Origin: Candidatus Tectimicrobiota bacterium
Lineage (GTDB): Bacteria; JACPSX01
Assembly (NCBI GenBank): GCA_016193065.1
Contig: JACPSX010000269.1
Location: 1-17,287 of the forward strand
Direction: 5' to 3'
Length of the DNA stretch: 17,287 nt
Shown here: positions 1,394-17,160 of the stretch, piece after piece
Position numbering within the stretch: the first letter of the stretch is position 1
Layout: each line of letters begins with the position of its first letter
Translations under genes and position numbers: made by a program
The notes under the pieces: generated by a model
Databases searched by the model: none
Told to the model about the DNA's origin: nothing
Seen by the model: only the letters and a program-made list of their open reading frames with translations

Positions 1394-3958
1394 TCACTTC
1401 ACCGACGGAACCTGAGCGAATTCCCCGAGCAGCGGTTCCGCCTTTTGTTCCCCTCTCTTGATGGACGGGGAAAACCGCTTGAGCAGCAGTGTGTTCAACG
1501 TGACCGTGACGGAACTGACCGCCATGAGAAGGGCCGCCAGCTCGGGGCTCACGACCAGCTTGAAGAACGGATAGAAAAGCCCGGCCCCGATGGGGATACT
1601 GGCCGTGTTGTAGGCAAAGGCCCAAAAGAGGTTCTGCTTGACCTTGCGCATGGTGGCCTTGGCTACTTCCAGGGCTACAACCACATCCCGCAGGTCCTCC
1701 TTGATCAGGATCACATGCCCCGTCTCTTTGGCCACGTCGGTCCCCGAGCCAATGGCCATCCCCACGTCGGATTGGGCCAGGGCCGGCGCATCGTTGATCC
1801 CGTCTCCCACCATGGCGACCTTCTTCCCTTCGGACTGGAGCTTCTTCACCTCGGCTGCCTTATCGTGGGGGAGAACCTCGGCCAGGAGCCGATCGATCCC
1901 TACCTGGCGGGCAATTGCCTGCCCCGTGCGGCGGTTATCTCCCGTGATCATGATGACCTCAAGCCCGAGCTTCTTCAGGAGGCTTACCGCTTCCTTGGAA
2001 TGCTCCTTGACGGTATCCGCCACCGCAATGAGTCCTGCCGCCTTTCCTTCCACAGCCAAAAACATGGCCGTCTTGCCGTCGTCTTCCAGCGCCTCTGCTT
2101 TCCCCAGCAGAGGCTCGATGTGGATCTCCCGCTCGACCATGAGCTTGCGATTTCCCAGGAGGATGCTCTGGTCTCTGTACCGGGCAACGACCCCGTGACC
2201 CGGAATCGCCTCAAAGGAATCCGCATCGGGAACTATCAGGCCATACTCTCGAGCCCCTCCGAAAATGGCCTCCCCCAAAGGGTGCTCCGAATTTTTCTCG
2301 GCGATGGCCGCCAGCTCGAGGACGTCCTCCTGGCGGAACCCGTTCGTTCCAATCACATCCGTCACGGAGGGCTCTCCCCGGGTCAGCGTCCCTGTTTTGT
2401 CGAAGATGATGGCTTGCAGCTTGCTGGTGGCCTCAATTGCATCCGCTCCCTTGAACAGAACCCCGTGCTCGGCCCCTTTTCCCGTTCCTGCCATCATGGC
2501 CGACGGGGTTGCCATTCCTACCGCGCAGGGACAGGAGATGACCAGAACCGTGATGGAGAGGAGAATGCTAAAGCCAAAGACACCGATGGCTCCCAGTTGA
2601 TTGGGAGTTAAAAGGAAGCGCGAGGCCGGATCAAAAAAGAGCCCGTAGCCCGCAAAAAACCAAAACAGGAACACGGTGAGGGCCAGGATGTGAACCCCCA
2701 GGATAAAATGTCCGGCGACCCAATCGGCCAGTTTCTGTATGGGGGCCTTGCTGGCCTGCGCGTCCTCCACCAGCCGGATGATCTGAGCCAGAGCCGTCTC
2801 CTTCCCCACCTTGGTCGCCCGGAATTTGAAGGCCCCGGTTTTATTCATGGTGCCGCCGATCACTTCATCTCCACTCTTCTTCTCGACGGGAAGACTCTCC
2901 CCCGTCAGCATTGATTCGTCCACAGCCGAGTAGCCCTCGATCACCAGGCCGTCCACAGGGATCCTCTCTCCCGGCCGGACCAGGACGATGTCCTCGGCCA
3001 CCACTTCGTCGGCAGGAAGTTCGATTTCCTGCCCGCCCCGGATCACCCGGGCCACCTTGGGCTGCAGGGCCATCAGACGGCGGATTGCCTCGGAGGTGCG
3101 GCCCCGAGTAAGCGCTTCCAGCCAGCGCCCCAGTATAATGAAAGCCGTAAGCAGAGCCGCCGATTCAAAAAAGACTGCCTTCTCCCCGCCAAAACCCGCA
3201 TCGGGCCAGAAGGTGTTGACCACTCCGATCAGATAAGCCGCCCCGATTCCTGTAGCGTAGAGCAGGTTCATGTCCGTGACCCCGCGCCTGAGCCCGTTGA
3301 AGCTGTTCTTGAAGAACTGCAGGGCGGGACCCAGGATCACCGGAGTAGTCAGGAGAAATAGGACAAGGCGATCGGCCAGAAACTCGGGCACGAAGCGCGG
3401 GAAGATCCAGTATTCCCGAAAAGTCCCCAGCATGATCACGAAAGAAAGAGGCCAGGCGACCAGCATCCAGTTCCCCTGCTTGCGGATCTCCCTCTGGCGC
3501 GCTTCCCGCTCGCGGTCCATGAGGGCAGCCCCTTCCAGCTTTTCGGAAGCTTCGTAGCCCAGGCCCTTGATGGTTTCCTTCATTTCGGCCAGGGAGGTCA
3601 GATCGGAGAAGTACTGGACCTTGGCAAGACCGGCGGCAAAGTTGACCAGTGCTTTACTGACACCGGGGAAACTCTTAAGAGCCCCCTCGATGGTCTCCGC
3701 ACAGGAGACACAGCTCATGCCGCTAACATTTAAAGAGACTTCCTCGGGGACCACCTCGTAGCCCACACCCGCAACGCTGCCGGCAATCTCCTGGATCCCA
3801 ACCCGACTGGGATCGTAGGCCACCTGTAATTTCCCGGCGGCGAGGTTCACGCTCGCCTTTGAAACTCCGGGAGTGTTCCCGACGGCTCCCTCAATGGTTG
3901 CCACGCAGGACGCGCAGCTCATTCCCTCGACTCGCAAGGTCACGCTCTTCGTCGCCAT
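1394..3958 (-). CDS. copA: Copper-exporting P1B-type ATPase CopA
   Basis: This 854-residue Cu(+) efflux ATPase has two N-terminal HMA domains with GMSCxSC metal sites (CxxC at residues 15-18 and 83-86). It has a membrane CPC motif (ISCPCAVG, about residue 477), the phosphorylated Asp in DKTGT (about 520), HP in the N-domain (HPLGEA, about 559) and GDGINDAP (about 718). The last two helices carry YN (FAYNTAS, about 782) and MxxSS (LMAVSSVTV, about 811). The CPC/YN/MxxSS combination is that of Cu(+)-transporting P1B-1 pumps, so it should move Cu(+) from cytoplasm to periplasm. The ATG at 3958 is preferred over the one at 3964 because GGAGG lies 6 bases upstream of it; longer versions would translate a repeat element. 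It is the core gene of the operon, flanked by periplasmic and small metal-associated proteins. Confidence 0.97.
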
Positions 3959-3994
3959 ATTCATCCTCCGTATGACGAATGCAACCACTCCACC

Positions 3995-4016
3995 CCCTCT
4001 CCCTTGAGGGAGAGGG
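3995..4016. repeat. Intergenic hairpin repeat (CCCTCTCCC/GGGAGAGGG)
   Basis: CCCTCTCCC (3995-4003) and GGGAGAGGG (4008-4016) form a perfect 9-bp stem around TTGA, in the 74-base spacer between the Spy-like gene and copA. The flanking text 'CAAGGGTGAGGG' belongs to a widely dispersed class of bacterial intergenic repeats with this sequence style. There is no U-tract, so read-through into copA is expected. Confidence 0.7.
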
Positions 4017-4032
4017 CAAGGGTGAGGGTGGT

Positions 4033-4578
4033 TCACGCCCTGTCAGGCCCTGCGGGCTGCAGATCTTCCTCGTCGCAATGGTCCACAGGTGCCCCTCCGG
4101 GAACCTCTCTCCCGGGCTCGCTGGAGGCGGTGGTCATCAGCTTCTCGCACTTCTCCCGCTGCTCCGGCGTCAGGAGGGCTTGCGCCTGCAGGATGCCCCG
4201 GATCCGCTGGATCTGCAGGTCCGCTCGCCTTCTCTCCGCTTGCCGAATTTTTGCCTCAATGGTGGCAAGGTCTGCGGAGCCACCTTCTACCAAAGCCATG
4301 ATCTCATCCTGCTGTTGAATCATCTCCTGCTGGGCCTGGCGGGCAGCTCCCTCGAAATCTGCGCGCAACTTCTCAAGCTCGCTTACCTGAGTTTCCGTAA
4401 GCCCCAGACGATCCTTGAACTGGATCATCCAGGTGATCGGCTGGCCCGAGAAAATGGCCCTATGAGAAATCCCACCCGATCCTTTGCTACCACCAGCCTC
4501 CTGGGAAAACCCGTAAGCCCCAACCCCCATGACTCCCAGCAACAGGACAGCCAGCAACCCAATCTTGATCCTCCCCAT
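4033..4578 (-). CDS. Spy/CpxP-like periplasmic protein (LTxxQ family)
   Basis: The product is 181 residues with a signal peptide (MGRIKIGLL, then a hydrophobic core to about residue 22). The mature part is mostly helical: [18 protein letters not shown], a glutamine- and arginine-rich coiled region, and the hallmark [12 protein letters not shown] near residue 143. This layout matches Spy/CpxP/CnrX-type proteins, which act as periplasmic chaperones or metal sensors under envelope and metal stress. The unusual C-terminal tail contains a DHCDEED stretch that could bind metal. The ATG at 4578 is preferred over 4602 because GAAGGAG lies 8 bases before it and the resulting N-terminus is a clean signal peptide. 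It lies directly upstream of copA in the operon, suggesting periplasmic copper sensing or protection. Confidence 0.85.
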
Positions 4579-5693: not shown

Positions 5694-6152
5694 ATGGATG
5701 CGGATTGTTTGATTAAACTGACCAAAGCCGGGCTCAAGGAATCCATTGGCAAACATGTCGCGATCGTGATTCCGGAAATGGTCCAGAGAGAGGTTGTCGA
5801 GGCCGGTAAAGACAAAGGATACCCTGACGCTGCCCTGGTAGAGAGAAATATCGCTGCAGGGCTGATACAGATCACTGGGAAATCCTCCTCTCACCGCAGC
5901 GGGGATGACGCCCTTGTAACTGTTTTTCAAGGAGAAGAGTACGATGCTGTGGCAACTGATGACAGGAAACTGACCCGTATCCTGAAAGCAGCGAACGTCC
6001 CTTTCATCTTGCCCGGCTTGATTCTTTACTCTCTCAAACAACAGGGACTGATGAATCAAGAAACCGCTTTGAGAAGTCTGGATCAATTGGCTCCTTTCAT
6101 CAGCAATGATGAATACAGCACTGTGAGATTATTGCTGGAGGGAAGATCATGA
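5694..6152 (+). CDS. PIN-domain toxin (VapC-like ribonuclease, DUF3368 type)
   Basis: This 152-residue PIN-fold protein starts MDADCLIKLTKAG, where Asp2 matches the first catalytic aspartate of PIN nucleases. Further acidic positions follow at Glu33 (VQREVVEAG), Asp71/Asp72 (GDDALV) and Asp89/Asp90 (VATDDRKL), which would bind Mg2+ for RNA cleavage. The pattern ...VATDDRKLTRILKAANVPFI is typical of the family. No start codon exists further upstream in frame before a stop at 5664, so the very short N-terminal strand is genuine. The gene precedes and overlaps the antitoxin gene by 4 bases (ATGA), the reverse of the usual antitoxin-first order. AGGGGG at 5682-5687 serves as ribosome site. The target RNA is unknown. 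Confidence 0.88.
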   Translation: MDADCLIKLTKAGLKESIGKHVAIVIPEMVQREVVEAGKDKGYPDAALVERNIAAGLIQITGKSSSHRSGDDALVTVFQGEEYDAVATDDRKLTRILKAANVPFILPGLILYSLKQQGLMNQETALRSLDQLAPFISNDEYSTVRLLLEGRS

Positions 6153-6433
6153 ATGTAAAATCCCTAAGAATTCCCGAAGACATCGAAAAGGCCATTGAAT
6201 ACGTGGCGAAGGTTGAGAAGATCGAAAAAAGTCAATCCCTGCGAAAACTCACGCGCATCGGGTTCGAGTGCTACGTGGCGAAATCCTACGAGGCCGGAAA
6301 GCTGACTCTCTGGGAAGCAGGGAAACTTTTGAAACTGCCCCTTTCGGGAACTCTCGACCTCCTGGCGGAAATGGGGGTCAAGGGGAACATCCGGTCCAGC
6401 GAAGTCTTGGAAAGCCTGAGAACGATCCCGTGA
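6149..6433 (+). CDS. Antitoxin with ribbon-helix-helix and UPF0175-like regions
   Basis: The product is 94 residues. The N-terminal 45 residues (MNVKSLRIPEDIEKAIEYVAKVEKIEKSQ...) have the strand-helix-helix pattern of RHH repressors. The second half, EAGKLTLWEAGKLLKLPLSGTLDLLAEMGV, matches the helix-turn-helix core of UPF0175 antitoxins. It overlaps the PIN gene by four bases, so the two are translationally coupled and form one toxin-antitoxin module. By analogy it should neutralise the PIN nuclease and repress the operon from the palindrome on the -10 box. The fusion-like combination of RHH and UPF0175 patterns is seen directly in the sequence; the neutralising role is inferred from family and position. 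Confidence 0.85.
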   Translation: MNVKSLRIPEDIEKAIEYVAKVEKIEKSQSLRKLTRIGFECYVAKSYEAGKLTLWEAGKLLKLPLSGTLDLLAEMGVKGNIRSSEVLESLRTIP

Positions 6434-7090: not shown

Positions 7091-7348
7091 TCACTCAGCT
7101 TCCATCGTCAGTATGTCTTCGATTTTCTGAAGAAAACGTGGAAGCTCCTCTCTGGCGATCGTCCACACAATCTCATAATTGATGCCAAAGTAGTGATGAA
7201 TCATTTTGTCCCTCACGCCTGCCAGGTCTTTCCAAGGAATTTGGGAATACCTCTTCCTCAAACGGCTGGAGAGATTCTTCGCCGCCGCAATGCGCTGTAT
7301 CGCCTCCTGGATATCGCTGAGGAAGTCCTGATCTCTTCGCTTAGACAT
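7091..7348 (-). CDS. hepT: HEPN toxin, HepT/DUF86 family, internally shortened
   Basis: The product is 85 residues. It keeps the family's N-terminal DFLSDIQEAIQRI helix and the C-terminal half AKNLSSRLRKRYSQIPWKDLAG. The catalytic Rx4HxY motif is present as RDKMIHHY, followed by FGINYEIVW. HepT proteins are usually about 110-140 residues. Here AIQRI is joined directly to AAAKNLS, so roughly 30-35 residues containing the usual second helix and the 'LEIIGEAA' segment are absent without breaking the frame. HepT is an RNase toxin held in check by its MNT partner, which modifies the tyrosine of this motif. The start overlaps the MNT gene by 8 bases, confirming the pair. Whether the shortened toxin still folds or cleaves RNA is doubtful. 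Confidence 0.85.
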   Translation of the reverse strand: MSKRRDQDFLSDIQEAIQRIAAAKNLSSRLRKRYSQIPWKDLAGVRDKMIHHYFGINYEIVWTIAREELPRFLQKIEDILTMEAE

Positions 7349-7664
7349 ACCTCAACGTCCTTTGGATGTCGCCAGCAATGCGTTTGTATCGAGGGTTTTC
7401 CAGACTCCGATGCAGAGTATCAAAGGTCGCCAGGTCCACCTTTCTGCCTAATGTCTCTTCAAGATAGTAAGCCAATCCGACAAACTCCAGCCCAAGTGGT
7501 TTTACAAGCTGGACTAGGATGTCAACGTCGCTTTTCGTTGTGGGGGAGCCTTTCGCAAACGAGCCGTAGAGGGCTATTCTTTCCACGCCATACTTGTCCC
7601 GCAAATATGGCAGTTCTTTCCTCAAGATTTGCATGACTTGTTCTTTGGTCAGTGACTTTTTCAT
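7341..7664 (-). CDS. mntA: MNT-type nucleotidyltransferase antitoxin
   Basis: This 107-residue minimal nucleotidyltransferase carries the GSx10DxD active site as GSFAKGSPTTKSDVDILV (about residues 34-51), and VDLATF supplies the third acidic residue. In HepT/MntA systems this enzyme transfers AMP units from ATP to the tyrosine of the HEPN toxin motif and so inactivates it. The gene ends inside the first codons of the HEPN gene (8-base overlap), so translation is coupled. The ribosome site before 7664 is weak (AGTGAG). The start is only 10 bases after the stop of a truncated upstream frame, so transcription may come from further upstream. The enzyme looks intact although its partner is shortened. 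Confidence 0.9.
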   Translation of the reverse strand: MKKSLTKEQVMQILRKELPYLRDKYGVERIALYGSFAKGSPTTKSDVDILVQLVKPLGLEFVGLAYYLEETLGRKVDLATFDTLHRSLENPRYKRIAGDIQRTLRYV

Positions 7665-8406: not shown

Positions 8407-9297
8407 CTACCTCAGCGGTTTGCCGCACTGGCCGCAGAAGCGGTCACCGGCGTCCAGTGGAGATCCGCAGCGGGTGCAGAAGCGGGCAGTCCGATCCGCT
8501 TTCTTGGCTTCTCCGGTCGCAGCCGTTGGGGTCCCTGGGGTCTGCGCACTCTGGCGCCTTCTGCGGCTCATAGTGGCAAATCCGCCAATGGCGATTACCG
8601 CAATTGTAGTCCCCACGGCCAGGTAAACATACGGGGATTTGCGTACTTCCTTCACCGGCACCTTTTCGCCGCCGACCTCTTTCTTGACGGAAGGTTTGCG
8701 GTCGCTCTTCGTGTAGGCGATCTTCAGGGACACATCCTTTCCGGGAGCGAGGTTCTCGAAGCCCAGGTGGGCGTAGTTGAACCCCTGCTGGTCCCCAAAA
8801 ACATTTGCCGGTTTGGGCTCCACCTGAAAATTCTCGGAGCGCAACGGTTGCTGCACATCCACGGCCAGCCTCTCCACGGGATAGGCAAGCTTCAGGAAGG
8901 GTACAATTTCCCGCCGCGTGTCACCCTTTACCCCGTCAAAGTAGTACTCCATCCGGAAGCGGGGCTCGGGCAGGTTGTATTTGACTTTCTTGACTCCCTT
9001 CTCTTCCGCAATCTCCCAGGTCTGGCAGAGATGTTCTTCTTTTTCCGTCATCGCGCAGGCTTCCGTCACCTCGGCCCCCGGAGGAAGGTAAAACACGACG
9101 GAGGAAGGCTTCCCCGTGTTTTGGGAAAAGACTCCCTCATACATCACCAGGACCCTGGGGTCGTCGTACTCGGGCCAGACGGAAATCTTGAGTTCTGAAA
9201 TCTTGTAAGCCGGAGATCCCTGCGCGTTGTCCCCCAGCAGGCCGATGAAGAGGAAAACACCCAGCAGGAACGCCGTCGCGGCAACTCTCTCCTTCAT
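8407..9297 (-). CDS. Exported membrane protein with C-terminal zinc ribbon
   Basis: The product is 296 residues. It has a signal peptide (MKERVAATAFLLGVFLFIGLL to about 28) and a beta-rich extracytoplasmic domain of about 190 residues (ISVWPEYDDPRVLVMYEG near the start; LAPGKDVSLKIAY near the end). A membrane helix at about 222-243 (VYLAVGTTIAVIAIGGFA) is followed by a basic stop-transfer RRRR. The cytoplasmic tail ends in a zinc ribbon with Cys274, 277, 288 and 291 (Cx2Cx10Cx2C). AAGGAG 8 bases before the ATG at 9297 fixes the start. It is the last gene of the cytochrome c maturation operon. The plan suggests an envelope domain linked to a cytoplasmic ribbon, but no function is known to me. 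Confidence 0.8.
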   Translation of the reverse strand: MKERVAATAFLLGVFLFIGLLGDNAQGSPAYKISELKISVWPEYDDPRVLVMYEGVFSQNTGKPSSVVFYLPPGAEVTEACAMTEKEEHLCQTWEIAEEKGVKKVKYNLPEPRFRMEYYFDGVKGDTRREIVPFLKLAYPVERLAVDVQQPLRSENFQVEPKPANVFGDQQGFNYAHLGFENLAPGKDVSLKIAYTKSDRKPSVKKEVGGEKVPVKEVRKSPYVYLAVGTTIAVIAIGGFATMSRRRRQSAQTPGTPTAATGEAKKADRTARFCTRCGSPLDAGDRFCGQCGKPLR

Positions 9298-9314
9298 GCT
9301 CTCATCTCCTTTGA

Positions 9315-9369
9315 CAACGCCCCTCACCCTCCCCTCTCCCCGGGTACCCCGGGTGCCCTTTGGGCGTTG
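9315..9369. repeat. Intergenic palindromic repeat with CCCGGGTACCC core
   Basis: CAACGCCC (9315-9322) and GGGCGTTG (9362-9369) are perfect inverted repeats bounding a C-rich interior (CCCTCACCCTCCCCTCTCCC) and the palindrome-rich CCCCGGGTACCCCGGG. It lies between two genes of the maturation operon and shares its ACCCTCCCC and CCGGGTACCC words with the repeat at 9857-9895. Confidence 0.65.
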
Positions 9370-9380
9370 CGGCGAGGGGG

Positions 9381-9803
9381 TCAAGATGTGACAATGGCAG
9401 CCAGCTCAGCGCCACAAATGCGGCAGAAATGATCCCCAGCCCCCCGCGGTGTCCCGCACTGGGCGCAGAATCGGGCTTCACCGCGGTGATTGTCGATGGC
9501 ATCCATCACCTGTTCGTCCACCAGGCCCCTCTTTTGGGTTGTCCGGTCGATTTGCTCCAGCAACGTGAGGGCCTTGAGACGATAGCGATCCTTGAGCTCT
9601 CCATAGTCTTTGGCGTCAATCTTCCCCATGCGGTGGTCAAGCTCCAGGTCCTTGAGAGCCGCGTAGACCACCTCCTTTTCAGACTCCAGGGCCTCCAATT
9701 CCTTCTTCCCTTGAGACCTCGGAGAAACCGCCGGGCGCACGAGAGGCCAGCCGACGAATGCCAGCGTCCCCAACACCAGGGTCACGATTAGTACCGTCTC
9801 CAT
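9381..9803 (-). CDS. CcmI-like protein with C-terminal zinc ribbon
   Basis: The product is 140 residues. An N-terminal membrane helix (TVLIVTLVLGTLAFVGWPLV) is followed by a charged helical segment, KEVVYAALKDLELDHRMGKI, then YGELKDRYRLKAL. This is the pattern of the N-terminal part of CcmI/CycH-type cytochrome c maturation proteins, which help deliver apocytochrome to the heme lyase. Instead of the TPR domain of longer CcmI proteins it ends in a zinc ribbon with Cys113, 116, 127 and 130 (Cx2Cx10Cx2C). The start at 9803 has GAGGAG 8-9 bases upstream. It follows ccmH in the operon after a repeat-filled 141-base gap. The position and helical block support a maturation role; the zinc ribbon is an unusual addition. 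Confidence 0.78.
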   Translation of the reverse strand: METVLIVTLVLGTLAFVGWPLVRPAVSPRSQGKKELEALESEKEVVYAALKDLELDHRMGKIDAKDYGELKDRYRLKALTLLEQIDRTTQKRGLVDEQVMDAIDNHRGEARFCAQCGTPRGAGDHFCRICGAELAAIVTS

Positions 9804-9944: not shown

Positions 9945-10415
9945 TCAGTCAAAATCCTTAAGCTCGGCCTCCATGCGCCTCTGATAACGCTCCTCCAGAC
10001 GGGCGAGGTCTTCGCCGCCCAGAGCGTCAGAGGCCGCGGGCTGCCGGGAAGCCCAGCGCCGAACCACAGCGAAGATCGCTCCGCCAGCCACCAGAATCGC
10101 GGCAAATGGGGTGAGCCAGGCGGTCAGGTTGAACCCCTTCTTGGTGGGCGCTGCCAGCAGCTTCTCCCCGTAGTTGTCGATCATGTACGCGACGATCTTG
10201 GGCTTGTCCCAGCCCTGCTCAATCTTAGTGGCAATGACCTTGCGGAGCTGCTCACCGCACTCCATATCGCAGACCGGCAGGAGGTTGTTGCAGCCGCAGT
10301 TGCAGATGAAGTCCTTCCCCACATCCCGAACGGTCAAAGTCGCAGCCATGGCGGGAGAAGAGAGCAAAAGAGTCACCAGGAACCCGATCACGAACACCGG
10401 CTCAGACCAGCGCAT
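9945..10415 (-). CDS. ccmH: Cytochrome c maturation protein CcmH (CcmH/NrfF family)
   Basis: The product is 156 residues. It has a signal peptide (MRWSEPVFVIGFLVTLLLSS to about 25) and a compact helical domain with a cysteine-rich motif FICNCGCNNLLPVCDMECG (Cys38, 40, 42, 49, 53). It continues with VIATKIEQGWDKPKIVAYMI and NYGEKLLAAP, all typical of the CcmH/NrfF family. A membrane helix lies at about 103-122, with a charged tail after it. CcmH is the periplasm-facing thiol protein that resolves mixed disulfides of apocytochrome c before heme attachment by CcmF. The motif has more cysteines than the LRCxxC of Proteobacterial CcmH and resembles the CxCxC variant of other phyla. The gene overlaps ccmF by 14 bases, with GGGAGGT 8 bases before its ATG. 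Confidence 0.92.
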   Translation of the reverse strand: MRWSEPVFVIGFLVTLLLSSPAMAATLTVRDVGKDFICNCGCNNLLPVCDMECGEQLRKVIATKIEQGWDKPKIVAYMIDNYGEKLLAAPTKKGFNLTAWLTPFAAILVAGGAIFAVVRRWASRQPAASDALGGEDLARLEERYQRRMEAELKDFD

Positions 10416-12393
10416 TTTCGGGTACCTCCCTGGGAACGGCGGGAACCGACCGGAAGGTCTTACGGGGACGCTCGCTTCCCATGACCACCAGAATCCCAAA
10501 GCCCATGACGTAGGTGCCGATCCACATCCACATCATCAAGGGATTGACCAGAACCCGGAAAGATGCCCCTTGCGGGTCATAGCCCGCCAGGATCACGTAG
10601 AGATCTTCCTTCAGGTTGCTGCGGATGGCGACCATCCCGTGGGGTTGTTCGGAGCCCGGATGAAACTGCTTCTGGGGCAAAAGGGTCTGCAGGAACTTCC
10701 CTCCTTTGTAGACTGCCATCCGGGCCGCCACAATCATCGTGTCCCCCTTGGGGTACCCGACCAGGTTCTCGTACTTGAGGGTATAGGGGCCGATCTCCAG
10801 CGATTCCCCCTTCTTCACATAGCCCTCCTTCTCAACCTTGAAGGCTCCGCCGGCAACGGCCAAAACCAGGAGGAGAATCCCCAGGTGGATGATATAGCCG
10901 CCGTAGCGCCTCTTGTTGCGGGATACCAGATTGGAGAACGCCTTCACGAAGCTCTCCCCCGTCATGTGGGCCCGGGCCCGCGTCCCCCGGTAGAACTCGG
11001 TTCCGATAGTGATTCCAATGAAGAGGAGGAGCCCGAAAGTGACATTGACGAGAGGGTCTCGAACCCCCGAAACGGGAATGAGGAGAACAGCGCCCAGAAG
11101 AGCCGTCAGGAAGGGCAGGAGAAAGTTTCGCTTGAGGTTGGACCAGGAAGCCCGCCGCCAGGCAATCAGGGGGCATACCCCGGTGAGAAACAGCAGTGCG
11201 ATCCCGATGGGGATCATGACCTGGTTAAAGAAGGGGGGCCCCACAGTGACCTTCACGCCGCGAACGGCCTCGGCAATCAGCGGGTAGAAGGTCCCCCACA
11301 AGGTTGTAAACGCCACCCCCACGAGAAGGAGGTTGTTCACCAGGAAACTCGTCTCGCGGGACACGAGCCCGTCGAGCTCATTTTTGCTTCTGAGTTCCGG
11401 CAGGCGATAGAAGAGGAGCCCCAGGGAAACCAGAAGGACGACCGCCAGGAAGCCCAGGAACAAGGGGCCAAGGCCCGTCTGGGAGAAGGTGTGGACCGAG
11501 GACAGGATGCCGCTGCGGGTAAGAAACGTGCCCAGGATCGAGAGCCCGAAGGTGGCAATGATGAGGACCATGTTCCAGACCTTGAGCATATCTTTCTTTT
11601 CCTGGATCATCACCGAGTGCAGATAGGCTGTCCCCGTGAGCCAGGGCAGAAACGAGGCGTTTTCCACGGGGTCCCAGGCCCAATAGCCTCCCCAGCCCAG
11701 AACTTCATAGGCCCACCAGGCCCCGAACATGTTTCCCAGGGTCAAGAAGAACCAAGTGACCAGTGTCCAGCGCCGGGTGCTGCGGATCCACTCGTCCCCC
11801 AATCTCCCCGTGATCAATGCCGCCATGGCAAAGGCAAACGGAATTGTGAACCCCACGTAACCAATGTAGAGAGTCGGAGGGTGAAAGAACATGCCCGGGT
11901 TCTGCAGCAGAGGGTTGAGCCCATGGCCATCGGGAGGCGGCACGGGAACCGGTGTAAACGGGTTCGAAAAGAAATTGAGGACTGCTAGAAAGAAAATCGA
12001 GACGCCCATGTTGGTGGCCATCACGTAAGGCATGAGTTCCCTGTGCCGGTAGCGGTTTTGCAGGGTCACAACGGCTACAAAGATGGAGAGCATGAAGCTC
12101 CAGAACAGCAGTGAGCCGTCCTGCCCGCCGTATAGGGCCGATACCTTGTATGCGAGGCCCTGGCCCTTTCGAGAATAGTTCATCACATAGGCCAGGCTGA
12201 AGTCGTCCCGCAGGAAGGCCGCCAGCAGTGCCAGAGTGGAAACCCCGAGGAGGAAGGCAAGGGCCAGGGAGGCCTGCTCCGAGGAGCGCACCAATTCAGG
12301 CCGTTTTTTCAGATGCCCCAGCAGCGCCGCCGCCCCCGCATAGGCAGCCACAGCCAGTGACAGGAGAAGGGAAAATTCTCCAAGGGTGTTCAT
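10402..12393 (-). CDS. ccmF: Cytochrome c heme lyase subunit CcmF
   Basis: This 663-residue polytopic membrane protein has about 15 hydrophobic segments. It carries the periplasmic WWD heme-handling domain (WGGYWAWDPVENASFLPWLT, about residues 235-255) and the family landmarks YGGQDGSLLFW (about 85-95), NPGMFFHPPTLYIGYVG and FLTRSGILSSVHTFS (about 290-305). CcmF accepts heme from CcmE and attaches it to apocytochrome c together with CcmH and CcmI (System I). The ATG at 12393, 6 bases after GAAGGAG, is preferred to a TTG at 12408. It follows the FxLYD-like gene by 18 bases and overlaps ccmH by 14. CcmABCDE genes are not in this window, so the full pathway must be encoded elsewhere or upstream in another cluster. 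Confidence 0.97.
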   Translation of the reverse strand: MNTLGEFSLLLSLAVAAYAGAAALLGHLKKRPELVRSSEQASLALAFLLGVSTLALLAAFLRDDFSLAYVMNYSRKGQGLAYKVSALYGGQDGSLLFWSFMLSIFVAVVTLQNRYRHRELMPYVMATNMGVSIFFLAVLNFFSNPFTPVPVPPPDGHGLNPLLQNPGMFFHPPTLYIGYVGFTIPFAFAMAALITGRLGDEWIRSTRRWTLVTWFFLTLGNMFGAWWAYEVLGWGGYWAWDPVENASFLPWLTGTAYLHSVMIQEKKDMLKVWNMVLIIATFGLSILGTFLTRSGILSSVHTFSQTGLGPLFLGFLAVVLLVSLGLLFYRLPELRSKNELDGLVSRETSFLVNNLLLVGVAFTTLWGTFYPLIAEAVRGVKVTVGPPFFNQVMIPIGIALLFLTGVCPLIAWRRASWSNLKRNFLLPFLTALLGAVLLIPVSGVRDPLVNVTFGLLLFIGITIGTEFYRGTRARAHMTGESFVKAFSNLVSRNKRRYGGYIIHLGILLLVLAVAGGAFKVEKEGYVKKGESLEIGPYTLKYENLVGYPKGDTMIVAARMAVYKGGKFLQTLLPQKQFHPGSEQPHGMVAIRSNLKEDLYVILAGYDPQGASFRVLVNPLMMWMWIGTYVMGFGILVVMGSERPRKTFRSVPAVPREVPENALV

Positions 12394-12411
12394 GAGGATC
12401 TCCTTCAAGCC

Positions 12412-12804
12412 TCAATTGCCATAGGGGTTGCGATAGCTCGGCACGCTGACCCGGAAGTGAGCAGCAGCGGGAAGCTGTTGCACTGAAGTGTGAAAGGGAA
12501 CACTCCCGCGAGGCGGAATCCCCTCGATCTGGGCTTTGCTTTCCCCGACCTTCTCGTGGGAGCTGCTGAAGAACTCCACTTGAACCTCCACATGCTCCAC
12601 CGGGTTTCTCAGGCGATTGGTGACAATCCCCGACACCCAGACTTTCCCACCTTCCTTGGAAAACCGGGTTTCGTTGACGCCGATCTCAGCGGACCGGGTA
12701 GAAGACCAGGCCAGATAGACGACGAAGACGACGGGAAGCAGAATCCAGAGAACTTTCTTGAATCTGCGATCTCCCCTCTCCTTGCCGCTGTTTTCCGTTT
12801 CCAT
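12412..12804 (-). CDS. Membrane-anchored FxLYD-like protein
   Basis: The product is 130 residues. A short basic cytoplasmic start (METENSGKERGDRRFKK) precedes one membrane helix (about 17-34), then an extracytoplasmic beta domain: VWVSGIVTNRLRNPVEHVEV, then FFSSSHEKVGESKAQI and IPPRGSVPFHTSV. This 'G.V.N....V..V.V...F....G........I.PG....F' pattern matches FxLYD/DUF3426-type domains found in many envelope proteins. It is the first gene of the cytochrome c maturation operon, 18 bases before ccmF, so it may assist the heme lyase, but that is inferred only from position. The ribosome site is a modest AGGGGCAGGG just before the ATG at 12804. Confidence 0.75.
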   Translation of the reverse strand: METENSGKERGDRRFKKVLWILLPVVFVVYLAWSSTRSAEIGVNETRFSKEGGKVWVSGIVTNRLRNPVEHVEVQVEFFSSSHEKVGESKAQIEGIPPRGSVPFHTSVQQLPAAAHFRVSVPSYRNPYGN

Positions 12805-13203
12805 GCCCTGCCCCTAAATCAAGGTCCTCACCGCTTTCTAGCAAACAAGATGCCATGGAAAAATTTCGGAACAGCACCGTAATCACTGATGAAAGAAGGA
12901 ACTTGCTATTCGCCCGCGACGGCAGTGGAGCCGAAAGCGACGGCTCTTGACAATCTGGCAAAAACAGCGCAAAGACCCGCCGCCGTCTCGACATTTTGGC
13001 AAGCCAAGATTACGTCCTCGCTGTTGGAGATCCGAAGTACCGGCGCCTGATCGGCTTTGATCCGTCTCTAAGTAGAAGTTTTCTAACGTCCCTTACGAGC
13101 TTCCGGGCCCGGGCGACCGGGAGGGAGAACGGCAGGAAACTTGCATACCCGCAACCGGTGTCAGAGCTGTTTGTAATGTACCGATCCAATGGGAGGACCT
13201 ACT
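12805..13203. other. Divergent intergenic region, about 400 bases
   Basis: This region lies between the divergently transcribed maturation operon and the selenoprotein unit and must hold both promoters. No convincing gene is present; a plus-strand frame through 12996-13188 has no ribosome site and poor composition. A partial sigma-54-like sequence (TGGCAAAAACAGCGC, 12956-12970, plus strand) has the right GG-N10-GC spacing but a weak -12 box. A TTGACA occurs at 12948 without a good -10 partner. Confidence 0.4.
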
Positions 13204-13749
13204 GTGTCAGTGAAAAGCTCCAGAAGGAGATACCGCATCAATTACTGGCTGTTTTTCCCTGTTCTTGGCGCTCTGCTCCTCGCGGCCATTCCCCCGCAGG
13301 CGGAAGCCGGGCCGAAGCAACTTCCCCTTCCCACAACTCTTGGCGAGATGCGCCTGGACCACTCCCTCCAGGGACAGGAGGCCCTCAAGGATATCTTCCG
13401 CCTGCACGGCAAGACCTTTGATCTCAAGGACGGTTACGTAGGCCACTACAGCAACAAGGCTGCCAAGGCCATGGTCTGGGTGTCAGAGTCCAAGAACCAG
13501 GACCAGTCCCGGCAGCTCTTGCAAATGATGGCGGCGGAAATCCGCCGCGGGCGCGGCCCTTACAGCAATTTTCAGGAGTTTGACGTCAACGGCAAAGTCG
13601 TCTACTCCGTGGATGGCCAGGGGCAGCAACACTACTTCTACGGCTCGGGCAAGCGGAACGTCTGGCTCGCCGTGGACCCCCCAGCAGCACAGAAGGCCCT
13701 CCACGAACTTTTGATGAAAATCAAACCCTTCGAAGTAACCAAGCCATGA
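13204..13749 (+). CDS. Exported protein of unknown function, partner of the selenoprotein
   Basis: The product is 181 residues from a GTG start. The basic start SVKSSRRRYR and hydrophobic core (WLFFPVLGALLLAAI) ending in AEA-GPK form a signal peptide. The mature domain of about 150 residues runs through GQEALKDIFRLHGKTFDLKD, then GYVGHYSNKAAKAMVWVSES, a YSVDGQGQQHYFY strand region and WLAVDPPAAQKALHELL. It has no cysteines in the mature part and no recognised domain. The GTG at 13204 is preferred to the ATG at 13189 because GGGAGG (13191-13196) lies 7 bases before the GTG and overlaps the ATG reading. Its stop overlaps the start of the redoxin gene (ATGA), so the two are coupled and probably act together in the envelope. 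Confidence 0.8.
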   Translation: MSVKSSRRRYRINYWLFFPVLGALLLAAIPPQAEAGPKQLPLPTTLGEMRLDHSLQGQEALKDIFRLHGKTFDLKDGYVGHYSNKAAKAMVWVSESKNQDQSRQLLQMMAAEIRRGRGPYSNFQEFDVNGKVVYSVDGQGQQHYFYGSGKRNVWLAVDPPAAQKALHELLMKIKPFEVTKP

Positions 13750-14324
13750 AGCGCCGCAGCATCTTCTGGATTGTTGTTCCGCTGGTTCTTTTGTTTCTTG
13801 GTCTGCTGGGACGCAGCACGCTGATCAAGGCCAAACAGCAACAGCGCACAGCAGAAGGCTACCAGGTCTTCGCCAAGATCCTCAAGGACAGGCGTGAGGC
13901 CCCCGAGCTTTCCCTGAAGCTCCTGGGGGGAGGGCCGGCCGACCTGCGCGAGTTCCGCGGCCGGGTCGTGATGCTCAACTTCCGGACCACCTGGTGACAC
14001 AGTTGTAAACAGGAGGGTCCTTCTGTAGAAAAACTCTTTCAGGAGCACAAAGGGCACCCCGATTTTGCCCTCCTTGCCGTCGATGTGGGGGAAGCCGAGG
14101 AGATTGTGGACCGCCGCTCCCGGGAGCTGGGATGGACCTTTCCCGTGCTCCTGGACAGCCGGGGCGAAATTTCGTCCCGATACGGGATCACTGGGCACCC
14201 GGAGACCTTCCTCATCGATAAGCAAGGACGCATCGCGGCCATGGCCATTGGACCCCGCAACTGGCAGAGCCCGGAGGCCGAGCGTCTCATTACTGCTCTT
14301 GTGAAGGAGGATCAGCCCTTCTGA
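13746..14324 (+). CDS. TlpA/CcmG-like thiol-disulfide oxidoreductase, probable selenoprotein (Sec84)
   Basis: This is a 192-residue product if the in-frame UGA at 13995-13997 is read as selenocysteine. The N-terminus has a membrane anchor (FWIVVPLVLLFLGLL, residues 7-21). The thioredoxin fold then follows: APELSLKLLGG, VVMLNF, TTW-[UGA]-HSCKQEGPSVEKL, DFALLAVDVGE, FPVLLDSRG, and the cis-proline region GHPETFLIDKQGRIAAMAIG. The UGA falls exactly where TlpA/ResA/CcmG proteins have the first Cys of WCxxC, giving UHSC (Sec84, Cys87). The frame continues without a break for 108 codons to the true stop at 14322-14324. A SECIS-type hairpin follows the UGA. The protein would reduce disulfides in the periplasm, possibly of apocytochrome c, since ccmF/ccmH lie divergently next door. 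A nonsense mutation is the alternative. Confidence 0.88.
14009..14026 (+). promoter_or_regulatory. Bacterial SECIS element downstream of the Sec UGA
   Basis: The RNA ACAGGAG-GGUC-CUUCUGU forms a 7-bp stem (one G-U pair) closed by a GGUC tetraloop. The stem begins 11 bases after the UGA, and the loop GGU begins 18 bases after it. A GGU/GGUC apical loop at this distance is the hallmark recognised by bacterial SelB, as in the E. coli formate dehydrogenase SECIS. It lies inside the coding region, as bacterial SECIS elements do. Confidence 0.82.
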
Positions 14325-14441
14325 ACCGACTGGACAGCTCCCGGTCGGCCGCGATTTGCGGAACACCCGGGCTGCCGCCATATCTACCGGACGGCAAGCC
14401 CACGGCTTCCGCGGCAGATTGTCCGCTTGCTCAAAAATCTT

Positions 14442-14468
14442 TTGACCTTGCCCGCCTTGGGATATAAT
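14442..14468 (+). promoter_or_regulatory. Sigma-70-type promoter of the ABC importer operon
   Basis: TTGACC (14442-14447) and a perfect TATAAT (14463-14468) are separated by 15 bases, shorter than the optimal 17. The start codon of the permease gene lies 41 bases downstream of the -10 box. It is the best promoter-like sequence in the gap after the selenoprotein gene. Confidence 0.55.
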
Positions 14469-14509
14469 AAGAAAAATCATCCAAAACCCAGGAATTCCGG
14501 GGACAGTTC

Positions 14510-15379
14510 ATGGAGAAGCAAGACAAGGCACTGGTCGTGCCGGGGGAAGCTGAATCCTTTGATCGAGAAGACGCGCCGGTCCGTCCCAGCCGGAAGGCTG
14601 CCAGCAGAAGGAAGGCGGCGTGGGACAACAGCCTCAGGATCGGCTCTATCGTGGCGATCTTCTTTATCTGGTGGATCCTGAGCCTGATCTTCCCCCCTAC
14701 CCTGATCCCCAAGCCATGGGAAACTCTCGCGGAGGCAGGGGCCATCATCAGCACGGGGAACTTCTTTGTGGAGATAGGGAACACGTTGCGCCGGGTTCTG
14801 GTCGGCTTCGGCCTGGCCATGGCCGTCAGCATCCCCCTCGGGATCCTCATGGGAACTCTGCGTCGCATGGAGAGCTTCTTCGAGCCGCCGGTCATTCTGG
14901 GGCTCACCATGCCGGGACTCATCTGGGCCGTGCTCATGATCATGTTCTTCGGCCTGACGGAGACCAGCGCCTACGCCGCCGTGGCCATAACGATCTTTCC
15001 CATGCTGACCATCAGCATCTGGCAGGGGACAAAGTCCATTGACAAGGATCTCATCGACATGAGCAATGTCTTCCAGGCCACTCCCGTGATGAAAATCGTT
15101 GAGGTGATCCTGCCTCAGCTCATTTCCCATATCCTGGCGGCCATCCGCTACGGTCTGGGACTGGCCTGGAAAGTGGTCGTAGTGGTGGAAATGTTCGGCT
15201 TCAGCAACGGAGTGGGCTATCAGGTGGTCCGAGGCTTCAACGTCTTCTCCATGAAGACCGTGCTGGCCTGGGCCCTCACCTTCCTGATCGTCATGATCCT
15301 GATCGAGTTCGGCCTCATCGGGTGGTTCGAGCGAAGTGTGACGCGCTGGCGCCCCCGGGTCGAGGCGTGGAGGCGTTGA
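14510..15379 (+). CDS. ABC importer permease (SsuC/TauC/NrtB type)
   Basis: The product is 289 residues. A polar N-terminal extension of about 45 residues is followed by six or so membrane helices in the BPD-transport inner-membrane fold. Family marks are visible: IPKPWETL, EIGNTLRRVLVGFGLAMAVS, IPLGILMG and the EAA-like loop FQATPVMKIVEVILPQLISH (about residues 190-210), which couples to the ATPase. YGLGLAWKVVVVVEMFG follows, which in this family is normally RxALGxAWxxxVxAEM. The protein forms the membrane channel for a small organic or inorganic anion in the nitrate/sulfonate/taurine group. GGGGA precedes the ATG. The ATPase gene starts 3 bases after the stop, so the operon is tight. The substrate is unknown. 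Confidence 0.9.
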   Translation: MEKQDKALVVPGEAESFDREDAPVRPSRKAASRRKAAWDNSLRIGSIVAIFFIWWILSLIFPPTLIPKPWETLAEAGAIISTGNFFVEIGNTLRRVLVGFGLAMAVSIPLGILMGTLRRMESFFEPPVILGLTMPGLIWAVLMIMFFGLTETSAYAAVAITIFPMLTISIWQGTKSIDKDLIDMSNVFQATPVMKIVEVILPQLISHILAAIRYGLGLAWKVVVVVEMFGFSNGVGYQVVRGFNVFSMKTVLAWALTFLIVMILIEFGLIGWFERSVTRWRPRVEAWRR

Positions 15380-15382
15380 TCC

Positions 15383-16156
15383 ATGGCCTATATCCATGTG
15401 GATCGGGCGGTCAAGTTCTTCCCCCGGGAAGACGGCACGGAGATGCTGGTTCTGGATGGGGTTTCCTTCGATTCGAAGGCCTACGGCATTACCTGCCTGC
15501 TGGGCCCATCGGGCTGCGGCAAGTCCACCCTTTTGAACGTGATCTCGGGGCTCGAGCGTCTGGACCGGGGCCGGGTGGAGATCATCTCGAACCACCGGGA
15601 TACGGGGGCCAGACCTCCGAAGCTGGGGTACGTGTTCCAGGACCCCCGCTTGCTCAGTTGGAAGCGGGTGGAAGACAACCTGATCTTCGCCCTGAAAGGG
15701 ATGAAGGTGCCTCCCTCCGAATGGCAGGAGCGGGTTCACAAATACCTGGACCTGGTGGGCCTGCTCGAGTTCCGCAAGCAATATCCCCTCTATCTGTCCG
15801 GGGGGATGCGCCAGAGAATCGGACTCGCGCGCGGCCTAGTGGTGCAGCCGGAAGTTCTCCTTATGGACGAGCCCTACAGCAAGCTGGATCAGTTGACGGC
15901 CCGTAAGTTGCGGGAGGACACCCTGTCCATCTGCGCCCTCCTGAAGCAGACCACCCTTTTAGTGACCCACGACGTGGAGGAGGCCGCCTACATGGGAGAC
16001 CGGATCGTGGTCATGTCCGCCCGGCCCGCGCGCGTCGTGGACATATTCGATAACCCCTTTTCGGCTCTGGAGAGAAACCTGGACGACGTGCACTTTATCG
16101 AGTTCAAGAAAAAGGTGCTCCAGACGGTCCTCAATCTCGTCAAAGAGGAGGTTTGA
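15383..16156 (+). CDS. ABC importer ATP-binding protein (SsuB/TauB/NrtD type)
   Basis: The product is 257 residues with all ABC ATPase motifs: Walker A GPSGCGKST (41-49), Q-loop in GYVFQDPRLLSWKRVEDN (about 92-100), signature LSGGMRQRIGLARGL (about 139), Walker B VLLMDEP (about 158-164), D-loop SKLD and the switch histidine in LLVTHDVEEAAYMGDRI (about 194). The QDPRLL.W..V.DN block is diagnostic of the nitrate/sulfonate/taurine importer ATPases. Most relatives have 'FSALD' where this has YSKLD, a minor change. It hydrolyses ATP in the cytoplasm to drive the permease encoded directly upstream. GGAGG lies 10 bases before the ATG. Its stop overlaps the first of two candidate start codons of the binding-protein gene. 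Confidence 0.94.
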   Translation: MAYIHVDRAVKFFPREDGTEMLVLDGVSFDSKAYGITCLLGPSGCGKSTLLNVISGLERLDRGRVEIISNHRDTGARPPKLGYVFQDPRLLSWKRVEDNLIFALKGMKVPPSEWQERVHKYLDLVGLLEFRKQYPLYLSGGMRQRIGLARGLVVQPEVLLMDEPYSKLDQLTARKLREDTLSICALLKQTTLLVTHDVEEAAYMGDRIVVMSARPARVVDIFDNPFSALERNLDDVHFIEFKKKVLQTVLNLVKEEV

Positions 16157-16158
16157 TG

Positions 16159-17160
16159 ATGAGAAGGCATTCCAGCAAGATCCTGATCATCGCCGCTGTG
16201 GTCCTGGTGTCCCTGTGGGGAATATCCGCTCCATATCCGAAAGTTGAGGCGGCCGAGCTCCCCTCCGTTGAAGTGGGCCTTCCCCAGGACGGGCTTTTCG
16301 GCCTGGGAGGCCAGTACATTCTGGACAAAGGCCTGGACCGCAAGAACGGGTTCATCATGAAACCGCGCTGGGCCGGCGTCCCGGAGATCCAGCGGCTTTT
16401 GGGCATACAGGCCATTTCCGTGGGATTGATGACGCCCGAGGCGGGGCTGCGGGCCAATCTACAGGGCACCCTGATCCGCTTGGTCCAGCCCTATCAGACC
16501 GCCCATATGTACGTCCTGGTCCGGAAGGATTCCCCCTACCAGAAGGTGGCAGACCTGAAGGGAAAATCCATCGCCTTGACTCCGGAAATCACCGGTCTCT
16601 ACAACATGTTTGACTTCATGATGAAGAAGAGGGGCATCAACATCGAAAAGGATTTTCAGTTGAAGAAGCTCGGAGCGCCGGCCATCATCGCCGTGCTGGA
16701 AAGAGGAGAGGTGGAAGCGGGCATCATCTGGGAATCCCATGTCTCCCGGCTCCTCATGACGGGAAGATACAGGACGATCATGGGATTTCGGGATGAGCTG
16801 AACTCCCTCCTGAACACGAAAGTCTTCCCCGTGATCTGGCTGTCCGGCCTCGAACCCTGGGTCAAGGCAAACCCCGCTCTGGTCTCCAAACTGCGGGCCG
16901 CCTGGACGGAGGCCTACCGGGGTGTCCAGCAGGATGAGGCCCATTTCCGGAAGTACGCGAAACAGTTCTTTGGATTGGACAAGCCCGAGGAACTCACTCT
17001 GGCCTGGCAGCGCACCCGGGAGTTCTTGCTCCCGGCAGATTTCACCTGGCCCGATGCCTCCAGCCTGAGGGCCGCCAAGAACTATCTCCGGGAGGCTACG
17101 GAGATGGGGATGTTTTCCAAGGAGGCGGCCGGCTATATCGACAGCTTTTACGCCCCTTGA
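16159..17160 (+). CDS. Periplasmic substrate-binding protein of the ABC importer
   Basis: The product is 333 residues. It has a signal peptide (MRRHSSKILIIAAVVLVSLW to about 31, ending KVEA) and a two-lobed binding-protein fold of the NMT1/SsuA-like group. Lobe 1 includes QAISVGLMTPEAGLRA, HMYVLVRKDSPYQKVADLKG and KSIALTPEITGLYNMFDFMM; lobe 2 includes ERGEVEAGIIWESHVSRLLM and a helical C-terminus. The block 'VRKDSP..KVADLKGKSIA' is a strong family signature. Two ATGs overlap (16156, 16159); the second is 7 bases after GAGGAGG and is preferred. It should deliver the ligand to the permease and ATPase encoded just upstream. The ligand cannot be read from sequence; sulfonates, nitrate, aromatic acids or pyrimidine precursors are all possible. 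Confidence 0.9.
   Translation: MRRHSSKILIIAAVVLVSLWGISAPYPKVEAAELPSVEVGLPQDGLFGLGGQYILDKGLDRKNGFIMKPRWAGVPEIQRLLGIQAISVGLMTPEAGLRANLQGTLIRLVQPYQTAHMYVLVRKDSPYQKVADLKGKSIALTPEITGLYNMFDFMMKKRGINIEKDFQLKKLGAPAIIAVLERGEVEAGIIWESHVSRLLMTGRYRTIMGFRDELNSLLNTKVFPVIWLSGLEPWVKANPALVSKLRAAWTEAYRGVQQDEAHFRKYAKQFFGLDKPEELTLAWQRTREFLLPADFTWPDASSLRAAKNYLREATEMGMFSKEAAGYIDSFYAP

Follow-up and report, generated by a model that had tools for sequence, protein, structure and literature searches.

ResA and CcmG, which are fed by CcdA or DsbD, act as reductants of apocytochrome c, at its CxxCH disulfide, or of CcmH. Thioredoxin-like proteins in which selenocysteine (Sec) opens the active-site motif (UxxC) are on record from several surveys. 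The Sargasso Sea survey lists UxxC Prx-like/TlpA-like selenoproteins, the thiol-disulfide isomerase-like one included (PMC1088965), a bacterial survey describes 8 Prx-like thiol:disulfide oxidoreductases (PMC1794560), the Global Ocean Sampling data hold 225 sequences of Prx-like 1 and 321 of Trx-like 1 (PMC2398784), and a 2026 inventory lists UxxC Prx-like and TlpA-like selenoproteins (PMC13188914). The Prx-like UxxC family is described from Geobacter, Syntrophus and marine metagenomes (PMC1794560, PMC2398784, PMC13188914). Many UxxC TlpA-like selenoproteins have been catalogued in this way, mostly without an assigned process, and the available text of the four surveys (PMC1088965, PMC1794560, PMC2398784, PMC13188914) makes no link between UxxC families and cytochrome c maturation. 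A literature search that paired selenoproteins with CcmG or with cytochrome c maturation yielded no relevant paper, most subscription papers lying outside its reach.

Here, a 17,287-nt stretch of DNA from a Candidatus Tectimicrobiota bacterium (in the following, the window) was analysed, in which 13746-14324 is, as judged from its sequence, almost certainly a real selenoprotein gene. Its product has the Pfam domain (PF00578) and the UxxC motif with Sec first in common with the Prx-like thiol:disulfide oxidoreductase/Prx-like 1 selenoproteins, a likeness of domain and motif, and the TlpA-like fold and UxxC motif in common with the thiol-disulfide isomerase-like selenoprotein (cd02966, TlpA-like; PMC1088965, PMC13188914). 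The available descriptions give no ccm linkage for the Prx-like selenoproteins and assign no partner to the thiol-disulfide isomerase-like one, known as a sequence family, whereas the window gene adjoins genes for cytochrome c maturation (ccm). The preliminary description of the locus had presented the Sec variant as biologically notable; the novelty so suggested was overstated, since UxxC thioredoxin/Prx-like selenoproteins have, by the available text of the reports, been catalogued since 2005 (PMC1088965, PMC2398784, PMC13188914). The kind of protein is already known; its neighbourhood suggests a new job, and what is newer is the connection with cytochrome assembly.

The reading frame and its internal UGA

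The gene and the features needed for its description are the following.

13746-14324, + strand: predicted selenoprotein gene, TGA read through; N-terminal membrane anchor (residues about 3-40) and ResA/TlpA/CcmG-type thioredoxin domain (residues about 44-188)
13995-13997, + strand: UGA codon 84, first position of UxxC, probably read as selenocysteine; aligned to Cys in 25 homologues and to UGA in 11 others
14004-14006, + strand: codon (TGT) of the putative resolving Cys87 of UxxC; column invariant in the homologue alignment
13189-13749, + strand: upstream gene of no known family with a signal- or anchor-like N-terminus; ends in a TGA that overlaps the selenoprotein ATG (ATGA)

The sole in-frame stop before the end of the frame 13746-14324 is the TGA at 13995-13997, and it falls, as had been claimed, on the first Cys of a WCxxC site (NFRTTW-U-HSCKQE). 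The count of 108 sense codons between UGA 84 and the terminal TGA at 14322-14324 was reproduced; a stop-free run of that length after a stop occurred in 2% of base shuffles. Family sequence on both sides of the UGA was found as well: one thioredoxin-fold domain spans it, with Pfam AhpC-TSA (PF00578) matching residues 50-165 at 72.8 bits (cut-off 26), next to matches to Redoxin (63.4 bits) and Thioredoxin_8 (41.1 bits). The codon-position base composition is alike before and after UGA 84 and resembles that of neighbouring genes. Automatic annotation would leave only an 83-residue fragment of this gene, and the enzyme would be missed.

Since the ATG overlaps the TGA of the upstream gene, the two genes are probably co-translated. 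Nothing above the Pfam or NCBIfam cut-offs was obtained for the upstream gene, and no promoter or terminator of note was seen within 12800-14700. The upstream product looks periplasmic, and a homologue with 40% identity is encoded about 2 kb upstream of a UGA-containing TlpA gene in another genome, G056 (L137 2402-2812). The membrane protein adjoining that homologue on L137 has the appearance of CcdA and was set aside, being without Pfam support.

Exchange of UGA and Cys at codon 84

Homologues were searched in 98 genomes, each related to the host only at the level of the domain, with translation through TGA. With the window gene included, 12 UGA genes were obtained from 9 genomes; each has one internal TGA in the thioredoxin domain, always at the first Cys of CxxC (WUHSC, WUQSC, WUGIC, WUPSC, WUPWC, WUPTC, WUPDC, WUPYC, TUPNC, WUGNC, WUGIC and TUGGC). 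Alignment of the homologues, as the preliminary description had advised, placed UGA from these 12 genes and Cys from 25 in column 84. The invariant columns are 84 (Sec/Cys), 87, Glu90, Pro152 and Gly161. A further entry of the search table, G293, was rejected as a UGA homologue because its TGA is the terminal stop.

The closest homologue of the window protein is G047:C20 (47-48% identity), with UGA at the same codon, and the two proteins form a clade with support of 100/99. The tree has 8 Cys-to-Sec changes (5-9 in bootstraps), a number that is not fixed, as the starred branches remain compatible with a single origin of Sec. The host itself carries a second UxxC (WUPSC) TlpA-like selenoprotein gene on another contig (L130, G000:C245; about 3164-3730, minus strand).

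A SECIS-like hairpin with the spacing of fdhF

A hairpin of the bacterial SECIS type was predicted directly after the UGA.

14009-14026, + strand: predicted SECIS-like hairpin ACAGGAG-GGUC-CUUCUGU with a 7-bp stem and a GGUC loop; GGU at +22 to +24 from the U of UGA

The hairpin starts 11 nt past UGA 84 and its GGU lies 18 nt past it, in agreement with the earlier reading of the sequence; GGU stands at +22 also in Escherichia coli fdhF (sequence from NC_000913.3), so the spacing matches that of the window gene. As the RNA is under constraint from the encoded peptide, stability was compared with that of 500 recodings of the same peptide, kept synonymous and matched in GC3, for each sequence. 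The window hairpin was more stable than its recodings (z -2.74, p 0.008). Across 13 UGA sites, one selD included, the mean z was -2.2 and 9 had p <0.05, as against a mean z of -0.16 and 4 sites with p <0.05 among 40 Cys homologues (Mann-Whitney p = 1.7e-5, which is only indicative as the sequences are related). Counting both strands, the window has 569 TGA triplets, and UGA 13995 is the only one followed at that distance by a GGU loop with a stem of 7 bp or more. The stability of the whole 56-nt stretch 13990-14045 was not unusual (z -0.41), so that folding of that stretch alone is weak evidence and only the short hairpin stands out. The Rfam gathering search over the window gave no matches.

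Proposed decoding of the UGA in the host

The host draft genome has 2.9 Mb in 294 contigs, is 86% complete and includes the window as contig C254. The preliminary description had named selA, selB, selC and selD as the genes to look for, and the result was divided. Found were selB (370.6 bits, cut-off 242.25; C175:269-2155) and two selD genes over the cut-off (410.5 and 382 bits) with one in-frame UGA each, while searches of this assembly for selA and tRNA-Sec found neither; the host matches above the Rfam tRNA-Sec cut-off were Ser and Trp tRNAs by an ARAGORN check. The selD paralogues lie on L012 around 8454 (+; C175) and L013 around 4856 (-; C120), with the UGA at the catalytic position in CAG-U-AGK and GAG-U-GCK. 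The start of selB is 268 nt from its contig end, and these 268 nt hold no selA end. Gene selA immediately precedes selB in G047, G031, G057, G084, G086 and G094, and the cluster of G084 also includes tRNA-Sec; the host selA and tRNA-Sec may therefore sit on a missing contig. Their absence leaves a gap in the case for the selenoprotein and does not refute it.

Two of the 9 genomes with a UGA homologue, G056 and G072, gave no selA or selB match; G072 (L134, L181) has a tRNA-Sec match of 77.6 bits despite this, and in G056 (L137) none of selA, selB and tRNA-Sec was matched. As selB was present in 7 of 9 UGA genomes and 8 of 16 Cys genomes of a chosen set, it fails to separate the two groups cleanly and its distribution was not used as evidence.

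A nonsense mutation or a sequencing or assembly error (TGA in place of TGC or TGT), or a truncated pseudogene, might be suspected in a fragmented draft genome without selA or tRNA-Sec matches. Such an origin is highly improbable, as UGA at the same codon is shared with homologues in other genomes, the SECIS-like hairpin has canonical spacing and the codon-position composition continues across the UGA. Thioredoxin sequence conserved on both sides, together with the same-codon UGA in unrelated genomes, excludes chance. A genome-wide reassignment of UGA, for example to Trp or Gly, by which residue 84 would not be Sec, would account for in-frame UGA read through in at least 4 host genes, yet every one of these codons is at a catalytic Cys/Sec position. 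Moreover, 14 of the 18 window genes, the selenoprotein gene among them, plausibly end in UGA; the codon is thus an ordinary stop here, which leaves reassignment with a negligible probability. On the preferred reading as a selenoprotein, UGA 84 would be decoded as Sec by the ribosome while SelB occupies the hairpin that follows.

Fold and nearest protein families

The AlphaFold2 model of the protein (pLDDT 93.9) consists of a long N-terminal helix (3-40) and a thioredoxin domain. The best solved match by VIA-align was ResA 2h1b (Z 22.9, rmsd 1.4, 137 aligned), with a Geobacter metallireducens thioredoxin close by (Z 22.8, rmsd 1.4, 141 aligned), TlpA bound to ScoI or CoxB at Z 20.4-20.6 and CcmG 1kng at Z 19.0 (rmsd 1.8, 133 aligned). 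ResA of Bacillus subtilis and CcmG/DsbE resemble the window protein in fold, in membrane anchor, in the positions of the second Cys (87), Glu90 (CxxE) and Pro152 and in ccm neighbourhood; they differ in having Cys as the first residue of the motif, which in the window protein would be Sec. The label CcmG-like, given to the protein earlier, is supported by gene order, but the NCBIfam cut-offs for ResA (90.9 of 170 bits) and DsbE (52.8 of 123.15 bits) were not reached.

Two described selenoprotein groups were considered and rejected. NF041054, the ResA-like WAxxUGC motif selenoprotein, likewise has Sec in a ResA-like domain; the window protein scores 34.8 bits against a cut-off of 300, and NF041054 is a long protein with a UGC motif as against UHSC here. 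The SaoT/Sao system, as in the window, places a thioredoxin-like UxxC selenoprotein near an ABC transporter; SaoT gave no match, and the scores for SaoP (95.8 of 295 bits) and for SaoA (173 of 360) fell short of their cut-offs. The transporter concerned is encoded downstream of the selenoprotein gene at 14510-17160 (permease, ATPase and an NMT1/phosphonate-type binding protein), and the best NCBIfam match of its permease is SaoP of the selenoprotein-associated Sao transporter, far below cut-off.

Neighbourhood of ccm genes

Upstream of the selenoprotein gene, on the opposite strand, the following genes were identified.

10402-12408, - strand: ccmF (cytochrome c haem lyase subunit), divergent neighbour; Pfam CcmF_C 192.8 bits, Cytochrom_C_asm 143.1
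9945-10499, - strand: ccmH (apocytochrome c thiol reductase subunit), after ccmF with no ccmG between; Pfam CcmH 72.2 bits
9381-9803, - strand: small zinc-ribbon protein resembling the product of the gene between ccmF and ccmH of G047 (26% identity over 150 residues); Zn_Ribbon_1 25.4 bits

The pair ccmF-ccmH lies just upstream of the selenoprotein gene and is divergent from it, so there is no common operon in the window. In G047 one strand carries, in this order, ccmF, a zinc-ribbon gene in the place of ccmI, ccmH, the UGA homologue and genes for a Rieske protein, a cytochrome b and a multihaem cytochrome c; the selenoprotein thus has the place of ccmG there. The UxxC gene on host contig C245 has a DsbD_TM/ccdA gene a few bases after it (about 2400-3188, minus strand), and this pair is flanked by CxxCH proteins (cytochromes). 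Cys relatives adjoin ccmH in G086 and G047:C22, and a CcmF-like/CcsA-like gene in G214. CcmE was searched for and not found. Most of the other UGA homologues (G097, G084, G006, G094) showed no ccm gene match in the stretches fetched.

Several other genes of the window were recorded. A conserved zinc-ribbon protein is encoded near the ccm genes at 8407-9384, and its homologue in G031 (L171 1888-2589) lies between two TlpA-like Cys genes. At 1394-4036 a copper-type P-ATPase has two N-terminal CopZ-like metal-binding domains, which are matched as well by NF041115, the model for UxxU metal-binding selenoproteins, though here with Cys. The two-gene units at 5694-6433 and 7091-7664 resemble toxin-antitoxin pairs by sequence, one putatively composed of a PIN-like protein and a small partner and the other of a nucleotidyltransferase and an HEPN-like partner.

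Proposed function

Taken as a whole, the protein is very probably a membrane-anchored ResA/TlpA/CcmG-type thioredoxin, predicted to face the periplasm, with Sec as attacking residue, and its most likely task would be to hold thiols in the reduced state during cytochrome c maturation. Judged by itself, a part in this pathway as reductant of apocytochrome c or CcmH is reasonably probable from the gene order. Gene order, in the form of the ccm genes and the C245 UxxC-ccdA pair, is also what the electron path from CcdA via the UxxC thioredoxin to apocytochrome or CcmH is inferred from. Electrons would enter through a CcdA-type membrane protein and pass to the UxxC thioredoxin; the attacking residue would be the Sec of U84-H-S-C87, and the targets may be the CxxCH disulfide of apocytochromes c, CcmH beside CcmF, or both. 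Evidence against such a role lies in the divergent orientation of the window gene to ccmF, the lack of a CcmE match, the scores below the NCBIfam ResA and DsbE cut-offs and the missing ccm matches around most other UGA homologues in the stretches fetched.

The same protein could instead be a selenoprotein of general use, a periplasmic thiol:disulfide reductase or a peroxide-defence relay (TlpA-, Etrx- or Sco/cytochrome-oxidase-related), and would then have no specific part in cytochrome c maturation. Fold and family cannot separate these roles, as the match to TlpA in complex with ScoI or CoxB illustrates; genes for copper handling share the window, and the UGA homologues of G097, G084, G006 and G094 stand without a ccm match in the stretches fetched. 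Against this, the one close orthologue, that of G047, lies within a ccmF-ccmI-ccmH operon, and several Cys relatives are found beside ccmH or a CcsA-like gene. A general reductase is thus judged unlikely, and the role in cytochrome c maturation is preferred. A wider proposal, towards which the balance tips narrowly, is that of a dedicated Sec version of CcmG/ResA in at least two bacterial lineages, where UxxC thioredoxins supplied by CcdA would reduce apocytochromes c or CcmH.

The ccmF-ccmI-ccmH-Sec operon of G047, the neighbourhood in the window and the UxxC-CcdA pair of the host tie UxxC TlpA-like selenoproteins to cytochrome c assembly, and this link makes testable why a cell spends selenium on a periplasmic reductant. 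If the wider proposal holds true, the thiol-reducing arm of cytochrome c maturation would run on selenium in these lineages.
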